Shown here: positions 34,978 to 41,578 of the stretch, piece after piece | Layout: each line of letters starts with the position of its first letter | How positions within the stretch are numbered: the stretch's first letter is position 1 | DNA from: Balneolaceae bacterium | GTDB lineage: Bacteria > Bacteroidota > Rhodothermia > Balneolales > Balneolaceae | Reading direction: 5' to 3' | Assembly (NCBI GenBank): GCA_020832415.1 | Contig: JAFIES010000133.1 | Coordinates: forward strand, 1 to 42,670 | Length of the DNA stretch: 42,670 nt | Program-made: the position numbers and the translations under genes | The notes under the pieces: model-generated | Told to the model about the DNA's origin: nothing | Seen by the model: the letters and a program-made list of their open reading frames with translations, nothing else | Databases searched by the model: none

Positions 34978-37900
34978 ATGAATTTTTCGACTATTTTCGC
35001 ACAGCATAAAACGCGGAATATCTTTTTTGCTACAATCAGTTTCACTTATGCATTTATTATTTACAGCCTTACCGTTGCTCCAACGGCCTCCTTTTGGGAT
35101 CCGGCTGAATATATTGCCATCTCTCATACCCTTCAGATAGCTCATCCGCCGGGCTCGCCATTTTTCGCAATTGTGGGAAGGGTAGTTTCGATGTTTATGC
35201 CTACCGAATATGTAGCGCTAAGCATTAACATGATCAGTGTAGTAGCCTCTTCATTCACCATTATGCTGCTCTATCTGATAGTAGTTCAGCTGATTAGCGA
35301 ATGGCGCGGATCCCCCGATAAAATGGATTTCATGGACCTTGTAGGTCTGTATGGTGGCGGGTTGTTTGCTGCACTAACATTTACAGTTACCCACACTCAG
35401 TGGTTCAATGCCGTTGAAGCAGAAATGTATGCTTCATCCATGTTCTTTACGGCACTTGTTGTATGGATGGCTTTGCAATGGTCTGCCAACCACGACAAAC
35501 CCTACTCGGAGCGCTGGCTGGTTCTCATTGCCTATATGTTTGGGATTGGGATTGGTGTTCACCTGCTCAATCTGCTTGCCATCTTCTTTGTGGCGATGAT
35601 TTTTTACTTCAAAAAGTTTGAATTTTCGATTCTTACGTTTCTATATATGATGGGAATTTCCATCATTGGGTTTCTGTCGATCTATCCGGTTACTATTATA
35701 TTCCTTCCCAATTTTGCAGGGCAAATTGGCGGGGCTACCTATGGATTAGTTGGTCCGCTTTCATTCGTTATACTTTTCGGTTTAGCCGTAGCATTCGGAG
35801 TGTACTACACCCACAAAAAAGGGCACCGTATTGCCAATCTGGTTCTGCTCTCATATGCGATGATTATGATCGGGTACTCCAGCTATGCACTCGTAATGAT
35901 CCGTTCACAGGCCGAACCACCCATCGATGAAAATGATCCCTCAACAGTTGAAGCATTTGTTAGTTATCTGAGCCGTGATCAATACGGCACAGCCCCGCTC
36001 CTTACAGGGCCCACATTCGACAACAGAACCGGCACTATTGACCGCTCAACGGAGAAACTCTTTCCGCGCCGCCATTCATCACAGCCGCACCATCTCGAGT
36101 ATTACGCAAATTTCGATTCAGATCTGGATTATTTCCTTGGCTACCAGGTAAACCACATGTATATGCGCTACCTGTTCTGGAATTATATAGGTCGTGAAGC
36201 AGATATTCAGGATACTGGCTGGTACTCCGGATTTTCAGACACGAGGCATAAAGATAATCCGGCAAATTCGGGTTATTTCTATCTGCCATTTTTGTTTGGT
36301 TTGCTTGGTATGCTGTTTCACTTTAGGCATGATTGGCGCAGGGCACTATCTGTTTTGGCGCTTTTTATACTTACAGGACTGGCTATTATTTTCTATCTCA
36401 ATCAGACCCCATTTGAACCGAGAGAAAGGGATTACGCCTATGTAGGTTCGTTCTTTGCATACGCAATATGGGTAGGCTTAGGGGCAACCGGCCTCATCGA
36501 AATGCTCAGGAGTCCACTGAAAAATAGTAAACCGGCAGCTTTTGCTACACTTGGTGTTATATTTTTTGCCGTACCCGGCTGGATGCTGCACCAAAACTGG
36601 CCCAGCCACGATCGCAGTGAGCGATATGTAGCACGTGATTATGCTTACAACCTGCTAAACTCTGTTGAACAAAATGCCATACTCTTTACAAATGGCGATA
36701 ACGATACCTTCCCGTTATGGTATTTGCAAGAGGTTGAAAGAGTGCGGACAGACGTTAGAGTGGTAAACCTCAGTTTGCTGAACACCGATTGGTACATTAA
36801 ACAGATGCGGGACAGGCAAACGCACGAGTCTCTGCCCCTGCCAATAGATCTCACCGATGAAGAGATTGATGAGCTTACATCAACACTCGAATTACATATG
36901 CCGGGCGAAATATCCATACCTGTTCATAAAGATTTTCTCCGCTCTATTTTTGAAGCTGATCCTTCACAAATTGAGGATACAACAGGAACCTTCTTCCGTC
37001 AGGGACTTTTACCTGATGGCATTCAAATGTCGCAAATGTTGCACAACCAGATTTTAATGGCCACTCCATACTCTCTGCCGGTGGATGAGCTGGATGATGA
37101 AGTGCGATGGTATCTGCAAGGCAGGTCTGCCGGGCGTGATGGACAGGGTAATGAACGTTTCTACCTGCAAACACAGGATAAAATGGTTATCGAAATATTG
37201 AGCAACAATAAGTGGCTCAGGCCGGTCTATTTTGCCAACACTGTTGCCAGAAGCGGCCAGCTTGGTTTGGATGATTATTTCCAGTTCGAAGGAAAAGCGT
37301 TTCGCGTAGTACCGAAAAAACGGGAAGCCGGTCCTTTTGGGCATATTGATCCGGAAGTACACGCTGAAAGACTTGGCAGTTTCCGGTTTGAGCGCTGGAA
37401 CTCCCCTACTGTTTACTTTGATGAGAATATCAGGCGAATGCTTGGCAATTATCGCTACGGTTTTACACAACTTGCCGATGAATTCATCAGCCGGGGTGAC
37501 TACGAATCGGCAGCATACTGGCTGAAATATGGCGAAGATAATATTCCATTCAGAACCATAGAGCACGACTGGACTGTTGCCACGCTCTATGCATTCAGGT
37601 ATATGCGAGTGGGTGAAGAACTGAGAGCCAATAATCTTGCATTCTTTATCGCCGAACGGCTGAAACATGATCTTCGGTACGACATCAAAGACCTTGATGA
37701 GGTTGAAGATAAAATCAGCAAGTTAGAAGAAGATATTCGACAGGCACGCTCGCGGGCTCGAACAGATAGAGCTCAATCATTACGAAACCGGCAGGACAGA
37801 CATGCAAGAAAACGAGATTCCATCATACAAGATGTAAGTTTTTCTGTGAGCCGGTTAACCATTCTTCAGAATGTATTTTTTGAAAATGAAGATGAGGCCA

Positions 37901-38013
37901 CAGCAGAAATGCTTCGGTTTGATGTTGAAACCATCACAGGCGGAAGGCTCGGCTTACCTGAAACAATCGAAGAAAGCCGCCAGCAAATTCGCCAGTTTGG
38001 CCTCGGATTTTAA
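34978..38013 (+). CDS. DUF2723 large membrane protein, predicted glycosyltransferase-like
   Basis: 1011 residues. The N-terminal half has the DUF2723 start (SLTVAPTASFWDPAEYIAIS and HPPGSPFF) with about 12 membrane helices to about 560, as in the GT-C-like proteins thought to act in protein glycosylation. Acidic residues in WDPAEY correspond to the catalytic Asp region. A soluble domain follows (NGDNDTFPLWYLQEVE, then VYFANTV). Residues about 905-950 form an Arg-rich coiled coil. No other sugar gene is nearby. The overall length is normal for the Bacteroidota family. Confidence 0.88.
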   Translation: MNFSTIFAQHKTRNIFFATISFTYAFIIYSLTVAPTASFWDPAEYIAISHTLQIAHPPGSPFFAIVGRVVSMFMPTEYVALSINMISVVASSFTIMLLYLIVVQLISEWRGSPDKMDFMDLVGLYGGGLFAALTFTVTHTQWFNAVEAEMYASSMFFTALVVWMALQWSANHDKPYSERWLVLIAYMFGIGIGVHLLNLLAIFFVAMIFYFKKFEFSILTFLYMMGISIIGFLSIYPVTIIFLPNFAGQIGGATYGLVGPLSFVILFGLAVAFGVYYTHKKGHRIANLVLLSYAMIMIGYSSYALVMIRSQAEPPIDENDPSTVEAFVSYLSRDQYGTAPLLTGPTFDNRTGTIDRSTEKLFPRRHSSQPHHLEYYANFDSDLDYFLGYQVNHMYMRYLFWNYIGREADIQDTGWYSGFSDTRHKDNPANSGYFYLPFLFGLLGMLFHFRHDWRRALSVLALFILTGLAIIFYLNQTPFEPRERDYAYVGSFFAYAIWVGLGATGLIEMLRSPLKNSKPAAFATLGVIFFAVPGWMLHQNWPSHDRSERYVARDYAYNLLNSVEQNAILFTNGDNDTFPLWYLQEVERVRTDVRVVNLSLLNTDWYIKQMRDRQTHESLPLPIDLTDEEIDELTSTLELHMPGEISIPVHKDFLRSIFEADPSQIEDTTGTFFRQGLLPDGIQMSQMLHNQILMATPYSLPVDELDDEVRWYLQGRSAGRDGQGNERFYLQTQDKMVIEILSNNKWLRPVYFANTVARSGQLGLDDYFQFEGKAFRVVPKKREAGPFGHIDPEVHAERLGSFRFERWNSPTVYFDENIRRMLGNYRYGFTQLADEFISRGDYESAAYWLKYGEDNIPFRTIEHDWTVATLYAFRYMRVGEELRANNLAFFIAERLKHDLRYDIKDLDEVEDKISKLEEDIRQARSRARTDRAQSLRNRQDRHARKRDSIIQDVSFSVSRLTILQNVFFENEDEATAEMLRFDVETITGGRLGLPETIEESRQQIRQFGLGF

Positions 38014-38133: not shown

Positions 38134-38601
38134 ATGATACACGAATTTACTGAAGAGAATATCTTATCCATTGGAAAGGTACTTGGCTGTTCACCAAAAA
38201 AAATAGGGACAGAAATGTATCGCCTTGAAATGGTAAATGAAGAGGATAACCGAAAGCTTGCCCTGGAAATCCAGCTGGGTTTAGTAATTGATAATAAACC
38301 TATGAATATGGTTTCTGTCTACTCCGGCAGCACGTTTATCCAGCTGCACAACTGCACAGCATTTGTTGCCAGTGAGATGCTTCGTCAGGTAACGTTTTTC
38401 GGCAAACAGGGTGGCAATACCTCCGGTTTGATTGTTGAGCAGGGCGCCGGATGCAGTATTTATGCAAACGTTCATGATTCCGTGCTGTCCGGTGATTTTA
38501 CGAAGCTCCCCGAAGATGTAATGATGTGCGGAGTTGCCCTGTCTCTCACCGAGTCACTCGATACGGATGATTTTTCATTCGACGATGGCAACATTTCCTG
38601 A
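38134..38601 (+). CDS. Conserved hypothetical protein before ybeY
   Basis: 155 residues, soluble. There is no motif that I recognise. The middle has a hydrophobic-polar alternation (FIQLHNCTAFVASEMLRQVTFFG) and the C-terminus is acidic (DDFSFDDGN). It overlaps the ybeY start by 17 bp, so it is probably made with YbeY. Two Cys are present, without CxxC. Role unknown. Confidence 0.72.
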   Translation: MIHEFTEENILSIGKVLGCSPKKIGTEMYRLEMVNEEDNRKLALEIQLGLVIDNKPMNMVSVYSGSTFIQLHNCTAFVASEMLRQVTFFGKQGGNTSGLIVEQGAGCSIYANVHDSVLSGDFTKLPEDVMMCGVALSLTESLDTDDFSFDDGNIS

Positions 38602-39058
38602 CATACCTACCGGTAACGATCTCCCAAAACTCACACTATCGAACCCTTCCGGAGAGCCCCTCCCGATAAAGGAACCGGATCTTGAAACGCTCATCTCTCT
38701 CATCGAAAAAAACGAGAATGTTACATTTAGTGAGATTGAGCTGGTATATGTGGATGAGGAACACATCATAAACGTGAACAAAGAGTATCTTGGCCGGGAT
38801 TACGTTACTGATATCATCTCATTCCGGTATGATGAGAATGAATCCGGCAGTGCTATTGAAGGCACACTTTTTTGCTGTGCGCCTCGTATCATCGAACAAA
38901 GTGAAGAAGCCGGCTCATCACATGAAAGTGAATTTTACAGAATTTTTATTCACGGTCTGCTCCACCTTGCCGGGTATAATGATCAAGCCAACGATGAAAA
39001 AGAGACGATGACACGCCTGGAAAACAGCTACCTGAAACAGATAGGCATGGAACCGTGA
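38585..39058 (+). CDS. ybeY: Endoribonuclease YbeY
   Basis: About 157 residues from the ATG at 38585; the frame extends to 38534 but the extra N-terminus does not look like YbeY. YbeY matures 16S rRNA and helps ribosome quality control. The metal motif is HGLLHLAGYND, with His, His and Asp; the third ligand, His in E. coli, is Asp, as in Bacteroidota versions. YLGRDYVTDIISFRYDE precedes it. It is followed at once by the topoisomerase-like gene, whose GTG overlaps the stop. Confidence 0.92.
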   Translation: MATFPDIPTGNDLPKLTLSNPSGEPLPIKEPDLETLISLIEKNENVTFSEIELVYVDEEHIINVNKEYLGRDYVTDIISFRYDENESGSAIEGTLFCCAPRIIEQSEEAGSSHESEFYRIFIHGLLHLAGYNDQANDEKETMTRLENSYLKQIGMEP

Positions 39059-40419
39059 ATCAATCTGTATACACACTTCTTATCGTTGAATCGCCTGTTT
39101 TGGCATCCGTAATCCAGGAAGTGGCACCTCAGTCGATCTATGCCATTGCAACAGGAGGTTATTGCTGGCATCCGCAGTATAATGCAGAAAAAAACAGCCT
39201 CACACCCAAAGCTGACCCTGATAAAATCGACATTCGGCGCGAATTAAAGGAGCAGGCACAATGGGCCAATAACGTTATTATTGCTACCGACAGTGATCCA
39301 TCAGGTGATTTTATAGCATGGTCGGTGGCTAAATTTTTAAAAAGATCTGCAATCCGGCGGGGACAGATTCAGAGCCTGAGTAAAACCGGAATCATACAGA
39401 TGCTGGAGGATGTTCGGGAAGTTGATATATCGTTTCTTGAATCGAGACTGAAAAATCTTTTCCTCATACAATCCGAATGGAATAAAGAAAAAAGTTTACC
39501 TCAGAAAGAACTTGCAGGACTCGTTTCACTGTTTGGTGCATCCGGAAATTTCATCCATTTTCTTGATGAGAACAATCATCTTTATCGAAGCTCCTCACCG
39601 GTTTTTTGTGAACCTGATGAACTCATACCACTAAAACGGTCACCAGAAAAGCAGTTTCGTATTACTGAACCACTTTCCACGTTCGACCTTCTTGAAAAAA
39701 ATTCAGAAAAATCCATTACTGCAGGATACAATGAAGCGCAGGTTTTGCTCCAGCGTCTGTTCCAGACCATTCTGCCAAACTCCGGAAAATCGTTGATTAG
39801 TTACCCCAGAAGTTCTGCCAACTCTTTTTACGGCCAAACCTGGGAGAATTTCAGAGTTCAGTTTTTGAGTGCTTCGCTAACAGGAGAGCTGAAACCCAAC
39901 TTTTTACAGGAAACAGCGTCCATTGAAGAACCCCATGAAAGTATCTATCCGCTGAATTTGGGAGTTACACCTGAAATTGTCTCAGGAGAGTTGTTAAAGT
40001 CATTGGCTGACCTCTATAAGCTGATCTATTCTCACACCCTGGAAGCTATCAAAATCCCGGAAATGCTTAACAGTTCGTTTGAAAATGATCTGAAACCCGA
40101 GGTTTACTTTTACCCGGAAGGTGATGCTGAATCTGAATCCAATAACCGGACTCTGAGGCCATGTATTACGGTTGGAGATTTGGGCAGAAGACTGTTTGAT
40201 CTTGGAATTGCAAGGCCATCAAATTTTGGAGAAAAGCTGGACTCCTGGATAGAAAAAAAATGGATTTCATCTGATAAAAATGTTGTAACGGCACTTCAGC
40301 CTGTTAAAACTTTGGGGAACCGCTCTGCAGATCTACAGCGGATACTTGTTGATTTAAAAAGCCTTGAAGACAGAATTTCTCTTTCACCTGAAACTGTGCG
40401 TGGTATATTAACGTCATAA
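39055..40419 (+). CDS. Divergent topoisomerase IA-like protein (Toprim plus Tyr motif)
   Basis: 454 residues with a GTG start overlapping the ybeY stop by 4 nt. The N-terminus follows the Toprim domain of TopA: LIVESPV with Glu12, TGGYCWHP where TopA has GHIRDLP, and ATDSDPSGDFIAW with Asp79 and Asp81. The third acid of the D-x-D-x-E triad is Ser83 here, with Asp85 two places on. Tyr250 in LISYPRSS lines up with the catalytic Tyr of TopA (TYMRTDS), with Arg252. There are no C-terminal zinc ribbons, and it is much shorter than TopA. It could be a degenerate or specialised topoisomerase; activity is uncertain. Confidence 0.72.
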   Translation: MNQSVYTLLIVESPVLASVIQEVAPQSIYAIATGGYCWHPQYNAEKNSLTPKADPDKIDIRRELKEQAQWANNVIIATDSDPSGDFIAWSVAKFLKRSAIRRGQIQSLSKTGIIQMLEDVREVDISFLESRLKNLFLIQSEWNKEKSLPQKELAGLVSLFGASGNFIHFLDENNHLYRSSSPVFCEPDELIPLKRSPEKQFRITEPLSTFDLLEKNSEKSITAGYNEAQVLLQRLFQTILPNSGKSLISYPRSSANSFYGQTWENFRVQFLSASLTGELKPNFLQETASIEEPHESIYPLNLGVTPEIVSGELLKSLADLYKLIYSHTLEAIKIPEMLNSSFENDLKPEVYFYPEGDAESESNNRTLRPCITVGDLGRRLFDLGIARPSNFGEKLDSWIEKKWISSDKNVVTALQPVKTLGNRSADLQRILVDLKSLEDRISLSPETVRGILTS

Positions 40420-40456: not shown

Positions 40457-41578
40457 ATGAACGATCTGCAAAAACCAGTAAATAATGATACCGGTAAAGA
40501 TGAAAATCACTTTTCCCGGCTGGGTACCATTCTGGCTTCCTATCTTGAGTTTGATAAAGATGATAAAGAGAAATCTTCTGTATTAAAGCCTGCACAAAAA
40601 CCCAAAGCGCCGGCCATACTCCGCTACCTCAAACCTGTTCCATGGCTTTTAGTTGGCCTCTTCCTCTTCTCTTTTTACTGGGATTTTCCCGGATATACGA
40701 CAACACTTTTTGGGTTTCCACTGCTTTTTGAGGGGTTATTGAGAATCATCTCAGTGAGCGGAATGATCGGTTTTCTTACAAACTGGATTGCAATAACTAT
40801 GCTCTTCAGGCCGCTAAATAAACGCCCGCTTCTTGGCCAGGGGCTGGTTCCGGCACATAAAGAACGTATTGCTTACAGGCTGGCAACTGCAGTATCAGAC
40901 GATCTGATTAACCCGGAGCTCATCAAGAAAAAAATTGGCGAGTCGAAAGCCATCAGCCGATATCGGAAAATGGCTATTCGTCATGTTGAAAGGGTTACCG
41001 CAAAACAAGAGTTCAGGGAAGATTTGAAATTGTGGCTTTTAGATTACATCAAGTCGATGATTGAGAATCCAGAGTTCAGGAAGAAAGTGAGCAGCCATCT
41101 GCTGAATGAACTGGATGATGCCCTTCAGGATAAAATTCTGGAACGTGCTGCACTCAAAACCTACACCTATTTCAGGGGACAGTCACTGCAAGAGTTTATC
41201 GAAGAGTTGCTGGAAAAAGTACCTGTATCGGCCGAGAAAAACATCGGATTTGTGGAGGAATATCTGGATGAACTCCCCAACTCCATCCATGCAAACAGTG
41301 AAAAAATAGATGAGCTGATTACAACAGCACTATTCAAACTAATCAATCAGCTGAATGTTCAGCACCTTGTTGAGGAAAATCTCAGAAAATATGATCAGCA
41401 GAAACTGGAATCGATGATCCGTAACGCAACGAACGAACAGTTGAAAACCATACAGTACCTTGGAGCAGTATTGGGCACCATTGGTGGATTTGTAATTTGG
41501 GAACCTATCCTCAGCCTATTTGTACTCGGTGTGCTTTTTGGCTCTGTCTATCTGCTTGACCAGTGGTTGTATCAATAA
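40457..41578 (+). CDS. DUF445 family membrane protein
   Basis: 373 residues. The first helix is at about 56-73 (LVGLFLFSFYWDFPGY). The DUF445 core ISVSGMIGFLTNWIAITMLFRP, with GLVPAHKERIA, follows. A long helical region at about 145-320 leads to a C-terminal helix (LFVLGVLFGSVYLLDQWLY). The family includes B. subtilis YheB, linked to spores, but its function elsewhere is unknown. It starts 37 bp after the topoisomerase-like gene and ends with a terminator candidate. Confidence 0.87.
   Translation: MNDLQKPVNNDTGKDENHFSRLGTILASYLEFDKDDKEKSSVLKPAQKPKAPAILRYLKPVPWLLVGLFLFSFYWDFPGYTTTLFGFPLLFEGLLRIISVSGMIGFLTNWIAITMLFRPLNKRPLLGQGLVPAHKERIAYRLATAVSDDLINPELIKKKIGESKAISRYRKMAIRHVERVTAKQEFREDLKLWLLDYIKSMIENPEFRKKVSSHLLNELDDALQDKILERAALKTYTYFRGQSLQEFIEELLEKVPVSAEKNIGFVEEYLDELPNSIHANSEKIDELITTALFKLINQLNVQHLVEENLRKYDQQKLESMIRNATNEQLKTIQYLGAVLGTIGGFVIWEPILSLFVLGVLFGSVYLLDQWLYQ

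Follow-up and report, generated by a model that had tools for sequence, protein, structure and literature searches.

A short type IA topoisomerase-like protein encoded behind ybeY in Balneolales, with core catalytic residues kept and TopA-invariant residues lost

The locus in Balneolales

The window analysed here is the whole stretch of 42,670 nt of contig JAFIES010000133.1 from a Balneolaceae bacterium. On its forward strand, at 39055..40419, lies the coding sequence of a short type IA topoisomerase-like protein of 454 amino acids, called protein X in the following, with a GTG start and a TAA stop. The GTG overlaps by 4 nt (GTGA) the stop of ybeY, which is directly upstream (38534..39058, forward strand). 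The true start of ybeY may be further downstream, since the domain starts only near codon 58 of the mechanically derived open reading frame. Before ybeY is the gene of a 155-residue protein with no Pfam family (38134..38601, forward strand) and, directly behind the protein X gene, that of a DUF445 protein (40457..41578, forward strand). All three are conserved neighbors, the 155-residue protein in all families read. An upstream protein of about 150 residues, with no Pfam family above cut-off, is also encoded at L068:7272-7724 and L060:3754-4212. A gene for a TMEM260-like protein O-mannosyl-transferase (34978-38013 in the window) is another conserved neighbor in the f1, f2, and f56 loci.

The protein X gene occurs in 42 of the 128 Balneolales genomes, in eight of 39 genera belonging to three families (f1, f2, and f56). 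Profile searches of 244 genomes of the class and 395 of the phylum gave no protein X outside Balneolales, and the sole match in a near-exact peptide scan of genome contigs was one Balneolaceae MAG (SLGA01000139). In 41 of the 42 genomes, the gene is on the same contig and strand as ybeY, directly behind ybeY or ybeY–DUF494; the coupling to ybeY proposed in a previous sequence-only reading of this DNA holds as gene order across Balneolales. In f1, the gap between the ybeY and protein X matches is 12–27 bases. The deeper families, f2 and f56, have a gap of 488–564 bases occupied by a DUF494/Smg gene (for example, at L068:8164-8613 and L060:2829-3299), which is absent from nearly all Balneolaceae. 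In every genome with a DUF445 gene found on that contig, this gene follows the one for protein X. In relatives without protein X, ybeY (or ybeY–DUF494) and the DUF445 gene are mostly adjacent, with nothing between them. Because one locus is common to three families, we infer an ancestral gene with repeated loss; transfers into the same spot appear less likely.

A mobile or viral origin was ruled out by searches of viral contigs, phages, and plasmids. No member of the protein X family was found in viral contigs, and phages and plasmids gave only matches at the level of ordinary topoisomerases, covering 27%–71%. There is no PADLOC family for protein X, PHROG matches with a meaningful E-value were absent, and the only structures returned by a viral-structure search at E ≤ 1e-3 were viral topoisomerases.

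The YbeY motif in the window reads HGLLHLAGYND (about 38957-38990), and every YbeY-type motif found in the loci read is HGxLHLxxYxD or a close form (the search pattern left the position of the third ligand free). The third zinc-ligand His of the canonical motif, HGxLHLxGYDH, is an Asp in these motifs. One MAG (G426) contains two ybeY loci (L063 and L080), the first kind with protein X and the other, with DUF494, of the f56 type; because both are present, the assembly, listed with 4% contamination, may be mixed.

Fold and ancestry

Protein X contains a Toprim domain at residues 8-100 (39076..39354, forward strand; PF01751, E = 1.8e-7), with a Pfam score of 31.6 bits for a curated cut-off of 23.1. 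The region of the catalytic domain III, residues 198-332 (39646..40050, forward strand), matches Topoisom_bac (PF01131, E = 2.8e-6) with 27.1 bits, under the curated cut-off of 35.1; 35 of the 39 family members match this model at E ≤ 0.01. The sequence ends with the core: neither a C-terminal zinc motif, a CxxC, a C-terminal Pfam match, nor an extension was found in protein X, which agrees with the missing zinc domains noted before.

The AlphaFold2 model (17 input sequences) has a pLDDT of 90.9 and a pTM of 0.88. In Foldseek, its top matches are type IA enzymes only, the best being the TopA of Thermotoga maritima (2gai, E 2.6e-22). A second structural aligner superposes it over its whole span on the 65-kDa TopA core of Streptococcus mutans (Z 26.2, 396 of 454 residues, rmsd 4.8), and residues 201-336 superpose on residues 278-406 of E. 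coli TopA (1cyy; Z 13.1, rmsd 2.4). The topoisomerase IA fold read previously from motifs is thus borne out by the predicted structure. The same fold results for a family member that is 26% identical to protein X and was modeled with a separate alignment of its own (pLDDT 89.5; Z 22–23, best 23.3). Since both models span the type IA core, protein X is, as modeled, a complete but reduced type IA toroid and not a fragment of TopA; a TopA that has lost its second half was ruled out on the same ground. The core has about 450 residues compared with about 540–590 in the solved cores, and the missing stretches, judged from the profile alignment, would lie in the insertion after the first half of Toprim, in the surroundings of the SxGRxQ helix, and in the second segment of domain II. 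Protein X has the four-domain toroid core and the Toprim domain that define the type IA superfamily fold. Several of the positions described in reviews as strictly conserved throughout the type IA enzymes are changed, however, so that "type IA topoisomerase" is here a name of fold and ancestry, and the activity is putative.

In the phylogeny, the protein X family forms a separate clade, with a support of 0.96 and a branch of about two substitutions per site. When the root is placed on the TopB side, this clade is the sister of TopA, with an attachment that is not safe in its exact position because the branch is so long. The profile scores against the PDB agree with the affinity for TopA (TopA 105 bits, reverse gyrase 62, and no TopB listed). 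Pairwise dN/dS values of 0.07–0.18 indicate purifying selection; dS approaches saturation for most of the pairs, and the values for the two pairs with the least divergence are 0.16 and 0.07. With such values and a frame open in about 40 genomes, a sequencing artefact or a pseudogene was ruled out.

Residues kept and lost

The motifs on which the TopA resemblance had been based are all present: VESP (with Glu12), GGYCWHP (34-40), D79-S-D81, and SYPRSS (with Tyr250 and Arg252). In an alignment of 39 family members (24%–74% identical to protein X), 17 of the 454 columns are invariant. Among them are Glu12 (39088..39090), equivalent to the acid/base and metal-binding Glu9 of E. coli TopA; Asp79 and Asp81 of the DSDPS stretch, residues 79-83 (39289..39303), equivalent to Asp111 and Asp113; Tyr250 and Arg252 of Tyr-Pro-Arg (39802..39810), equivalent to the nucleophile Tyr319 and to Arg321; and His294 (39934..39936), equivalent to His365 (all on the forward strand). 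If all columns are taken as equal, the chance that six preset positions fall within the 17 invariant ones is about 1e-9. All 39 members therefore have the residues that characterize type IA enzymes: the catalytic Tyr with an Arg two positions on, the His of the HEAIRP motif, the Toprim Glu, and the DxD. Further family-wide invariants are Trp38, Pro40, and Arg61.

The losses are as regular. The comparison with 16 TopA proteins, in all of which K13, R114, E115, E117, H33, R168, D172, S192/G194/R195/Q197, D323, and R507 are invariant, shows that the altered Lys and third acid mentioned in the sequence-only reading are real and family-wide. At the position of TopA Lys13 (Leu16 in protein X, 39100..39102, forward strand), the 39 members have I, L, M, V, or T, never Lys; at the position of TopB Lys8, all 39 have Ser, so that neither active-site lysine is present. 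The third acid, Glu115 in 16/16 TopA and Ser83 in protein X, is Ser in 35 members and Ala in four. Within the DDE set, the change is confined to the third acid, as the two DxD aspartates are intact, like the Toprim Glu9. Arg114 is replaced by P or A, and the position of R507 is variable.

Other changes had not been noted before. His33 is Tyr or Phe. In a diverged region where the profile alignment is weaker than it is near the motifs, Asp172 is gone in 39/39 (mostly Ile) and Arg168 is mostly Asn, retained in at most six members. The strand-binding motif SxGRxQ of domain IV (G194, R195, Q197) is absent from all 39 members; it is present in 16/16 TopA and in 9/9 Bacteroidota TopB checked.

Possible activity

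In type IA enzymes, E9 and the DxD are needed for the metal, R321 for holding the phosphate, and Y319 for the nucleophilic attack (PMC7587558, PMC6101483). In E. coli TopA, Lys13 is required for DNA cleavage, and its equivalent is >6.8 Å from the scissile phosphate in a crystal structure (PMC6101483). Changes in the triad D111/D113/E115 lead to deficient re-joining of DNA and are dominant lethal (PMC7823277). Human TOP3B deprived of its Lys (K10M) cleaves DNA and RNA with metal and re-joins RNA only (PMC9363430). R168, D172, G194, R195, and Q197 are strictly conserved for binding of the G-strand, and mutation of residues of the strand groove in E. coli TopA reduces relaxation (PMC7587558). Protein X combines the losses of the lysine and of the triad acid with the absence of the strand-groove residues and of the C-terminal domains for the T-strand. 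Because of the published lysine and acid-triad mutants, ordinary DNA relaxation is unlikely and, given all these losses, protein X most likely has no TopA-like relaxing activity on DNA.

Because the six catalytic residues are kept and the TopA invariants lost, we lean, at somewhat better than even, toward an active but altered enzyme: a tyrosine transesterase in which the binding of metal and strand is altered, acting on a changed substrate for which RNA is the leading candidate. Protein X would be a minimal paralogue of the type IA core, encoded on the chromosome and inherited vertically, that still performs tyrosine transesterification. Tyr250 would attack a single strand, assisted by Glu12 and Asp79/Asp81 with a metal, and by Arg252 and His294. 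The lysine, the third acid, and much of the strand-binding groove would have been lost, together with the C-terminal domains that serve the processive relaxation of DNA. The enzyme would cut and re-join a special single-stranded substrate, RNA in the first place, with structured single-stranded DNA as the alternative. A specialized nucleic-acid enzyme, one of the functions suggested previously, is in this sense the best reading as a candidate function. We infer the activity, the impaired re-joining of DNA, and the RNA substrate alike.

A bolder form, which we consider rather improbable, is a dedicated bacterial RNA-directed type IA enzyme beside ybeY, able to cut and re-join RNA and unable to re-seal DNA. 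YbeY is an RNase in other bacteria; as a neighbor, it is only a hint of an RNA role, the link between ybeY and protein X being one of gene order only. Such an enzyme would be a natural counterpart of the TOP3B mutant without its Lys, and an RNA topoisomerase, as suggested in the sequence-only reading, would be compatible with that mutant (PMC9363430). For the preferred reading as well, the carry-over from TOP3B is indirect because its Lys, at the E-K-P position, differs in place from Lys13 of TopA; the distance of the Lys13 equivalent from the scissile phosphate is a further point against it. The group to which the window's protein belongs has an acidic pI (5.3), which is unusual for nucleic-acid binding and also counts against the preferred reading; the pI reaches 9.7 in some f2 proteins, and this wide span within the family possibly tracks the salinity of the host.

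Protein X could also be an ordinary single-strand DNA topoisomerase, weakly relaxing or decatenating like TopB, with a divergent active site where other residues replace the lysine and the third acid. The complete toroid and the intact Tyr/Arg/His and E-DxD would suit such an enzyme; TopA, too, has no Lys at the TopB position (PMC6101483), and the invariant Trp38, Pro40, and Arg61 could compensate. The Balneolales genomes sampled have no TopB, which may leave room for a decatenase. On the other hand, the majority of genera in the order do without the gene, which excludes an essential TopB role, and positions invariant in 16/16 TopA, groove residues included (PMC7587558), are lost. We regard this reading as unlikely, with enough in its favor to be kept in view. 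A catalytically dead clamp or scaffold on single-stranded nucleic acid, the inactive alternative of the sequence-only reading, would fit with the missing strand-binding motif and the replaced Lys13 and Glu115. That alternative is disfavored, and we give it little credit: the six core catalytic residues are invariant across very divergent sequences, where a loss of the Tyr or the Arg would be expected somewhere among 39, and dN/dS is low. The D-x-D-P-x-G motif of protein X recalls, in our view, Spo11/Top6A and gives a lead to a one-way cutter that would leave a stable 5′-phosphotyrosyl break without re-joining, for defense or in a Spo11-like use. The re-joining deficiency of the TopA triad mutants (PMC7823277) goes in that direction, but the family is missing from PADLOC and from phages, plasmids, and viral contigs and occupies a fixed chromosomal locus beside housekeeping genes, apparently with vertical inheritance, and this reading is very improbable.

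The protein X family provides natural "mutants" that can be informative on the functions of the strand groove, the lysine, and the third acid. Should its substrate be RNA, protein X would be a bacterial enzyme dedicated to the topology of RNA.

Comparison with known enzymes

We found no published description of the family in the open-access literature, the part of the literature that was searched. The same genome has, on another contig, one complete TopA of about 850 amino acids with the normal motifs ESPTK and DEDREGE; no further Topoisom_bac gene was reported there. With TopA (TIGR01051), protein X shares the Toprim domain and the type IA toroid, E9, D111, D113, Y319, R321, and H365, and VESP, and TopA gives both the best PDB profile score and the best structural Z. 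In contrast to TopA, protein X is short (454 residues), without the C-terminal zinc or Toprim_C_rpt domains; K13, E115, D172, and SxGRxQ are absent and R168 is mostly gone. Its score with the TIGR01051 equivalog is 52.9 bits, below the cut-off of 456.4.

With topoisomerase III (TopB/TOP3A/TOP3B), the fold (Z 15–22) and the short tail are shared, and the Tyr-Pro-Arg at the active site of protein X is the TopB motif. Protein X, however, has E-S-P instead of E-K-P, and thus not the TopB lysine, and is without the SxGRxQ that all nine Bacteroidota TopB checked possess. TopB models match it weakly (E 0.01–0.03), and TIGR01056 (topoisomerase III) gives 12.7 bits versus a cut-off of 515.75. The topoisomerase half of reverse gyrase has the same core (Z 14–23), but protein X is without the helicase half, and the profile score is lower than for TopA (62 vs. 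105 bits).

In many proteobacteria, the gene order dprA-smg-topA occurs. In E. coli, the topoisomerase-related yrdD is directly behind smg (DUF494), as protein X is behind DUF494 in f2 and f56. YrdD consists of zinc fingers of the C-terminal type, the very part that protein X lacks, and no homology is claimed. The protein X family is a variant of the type IA enzymes and not a new kind.
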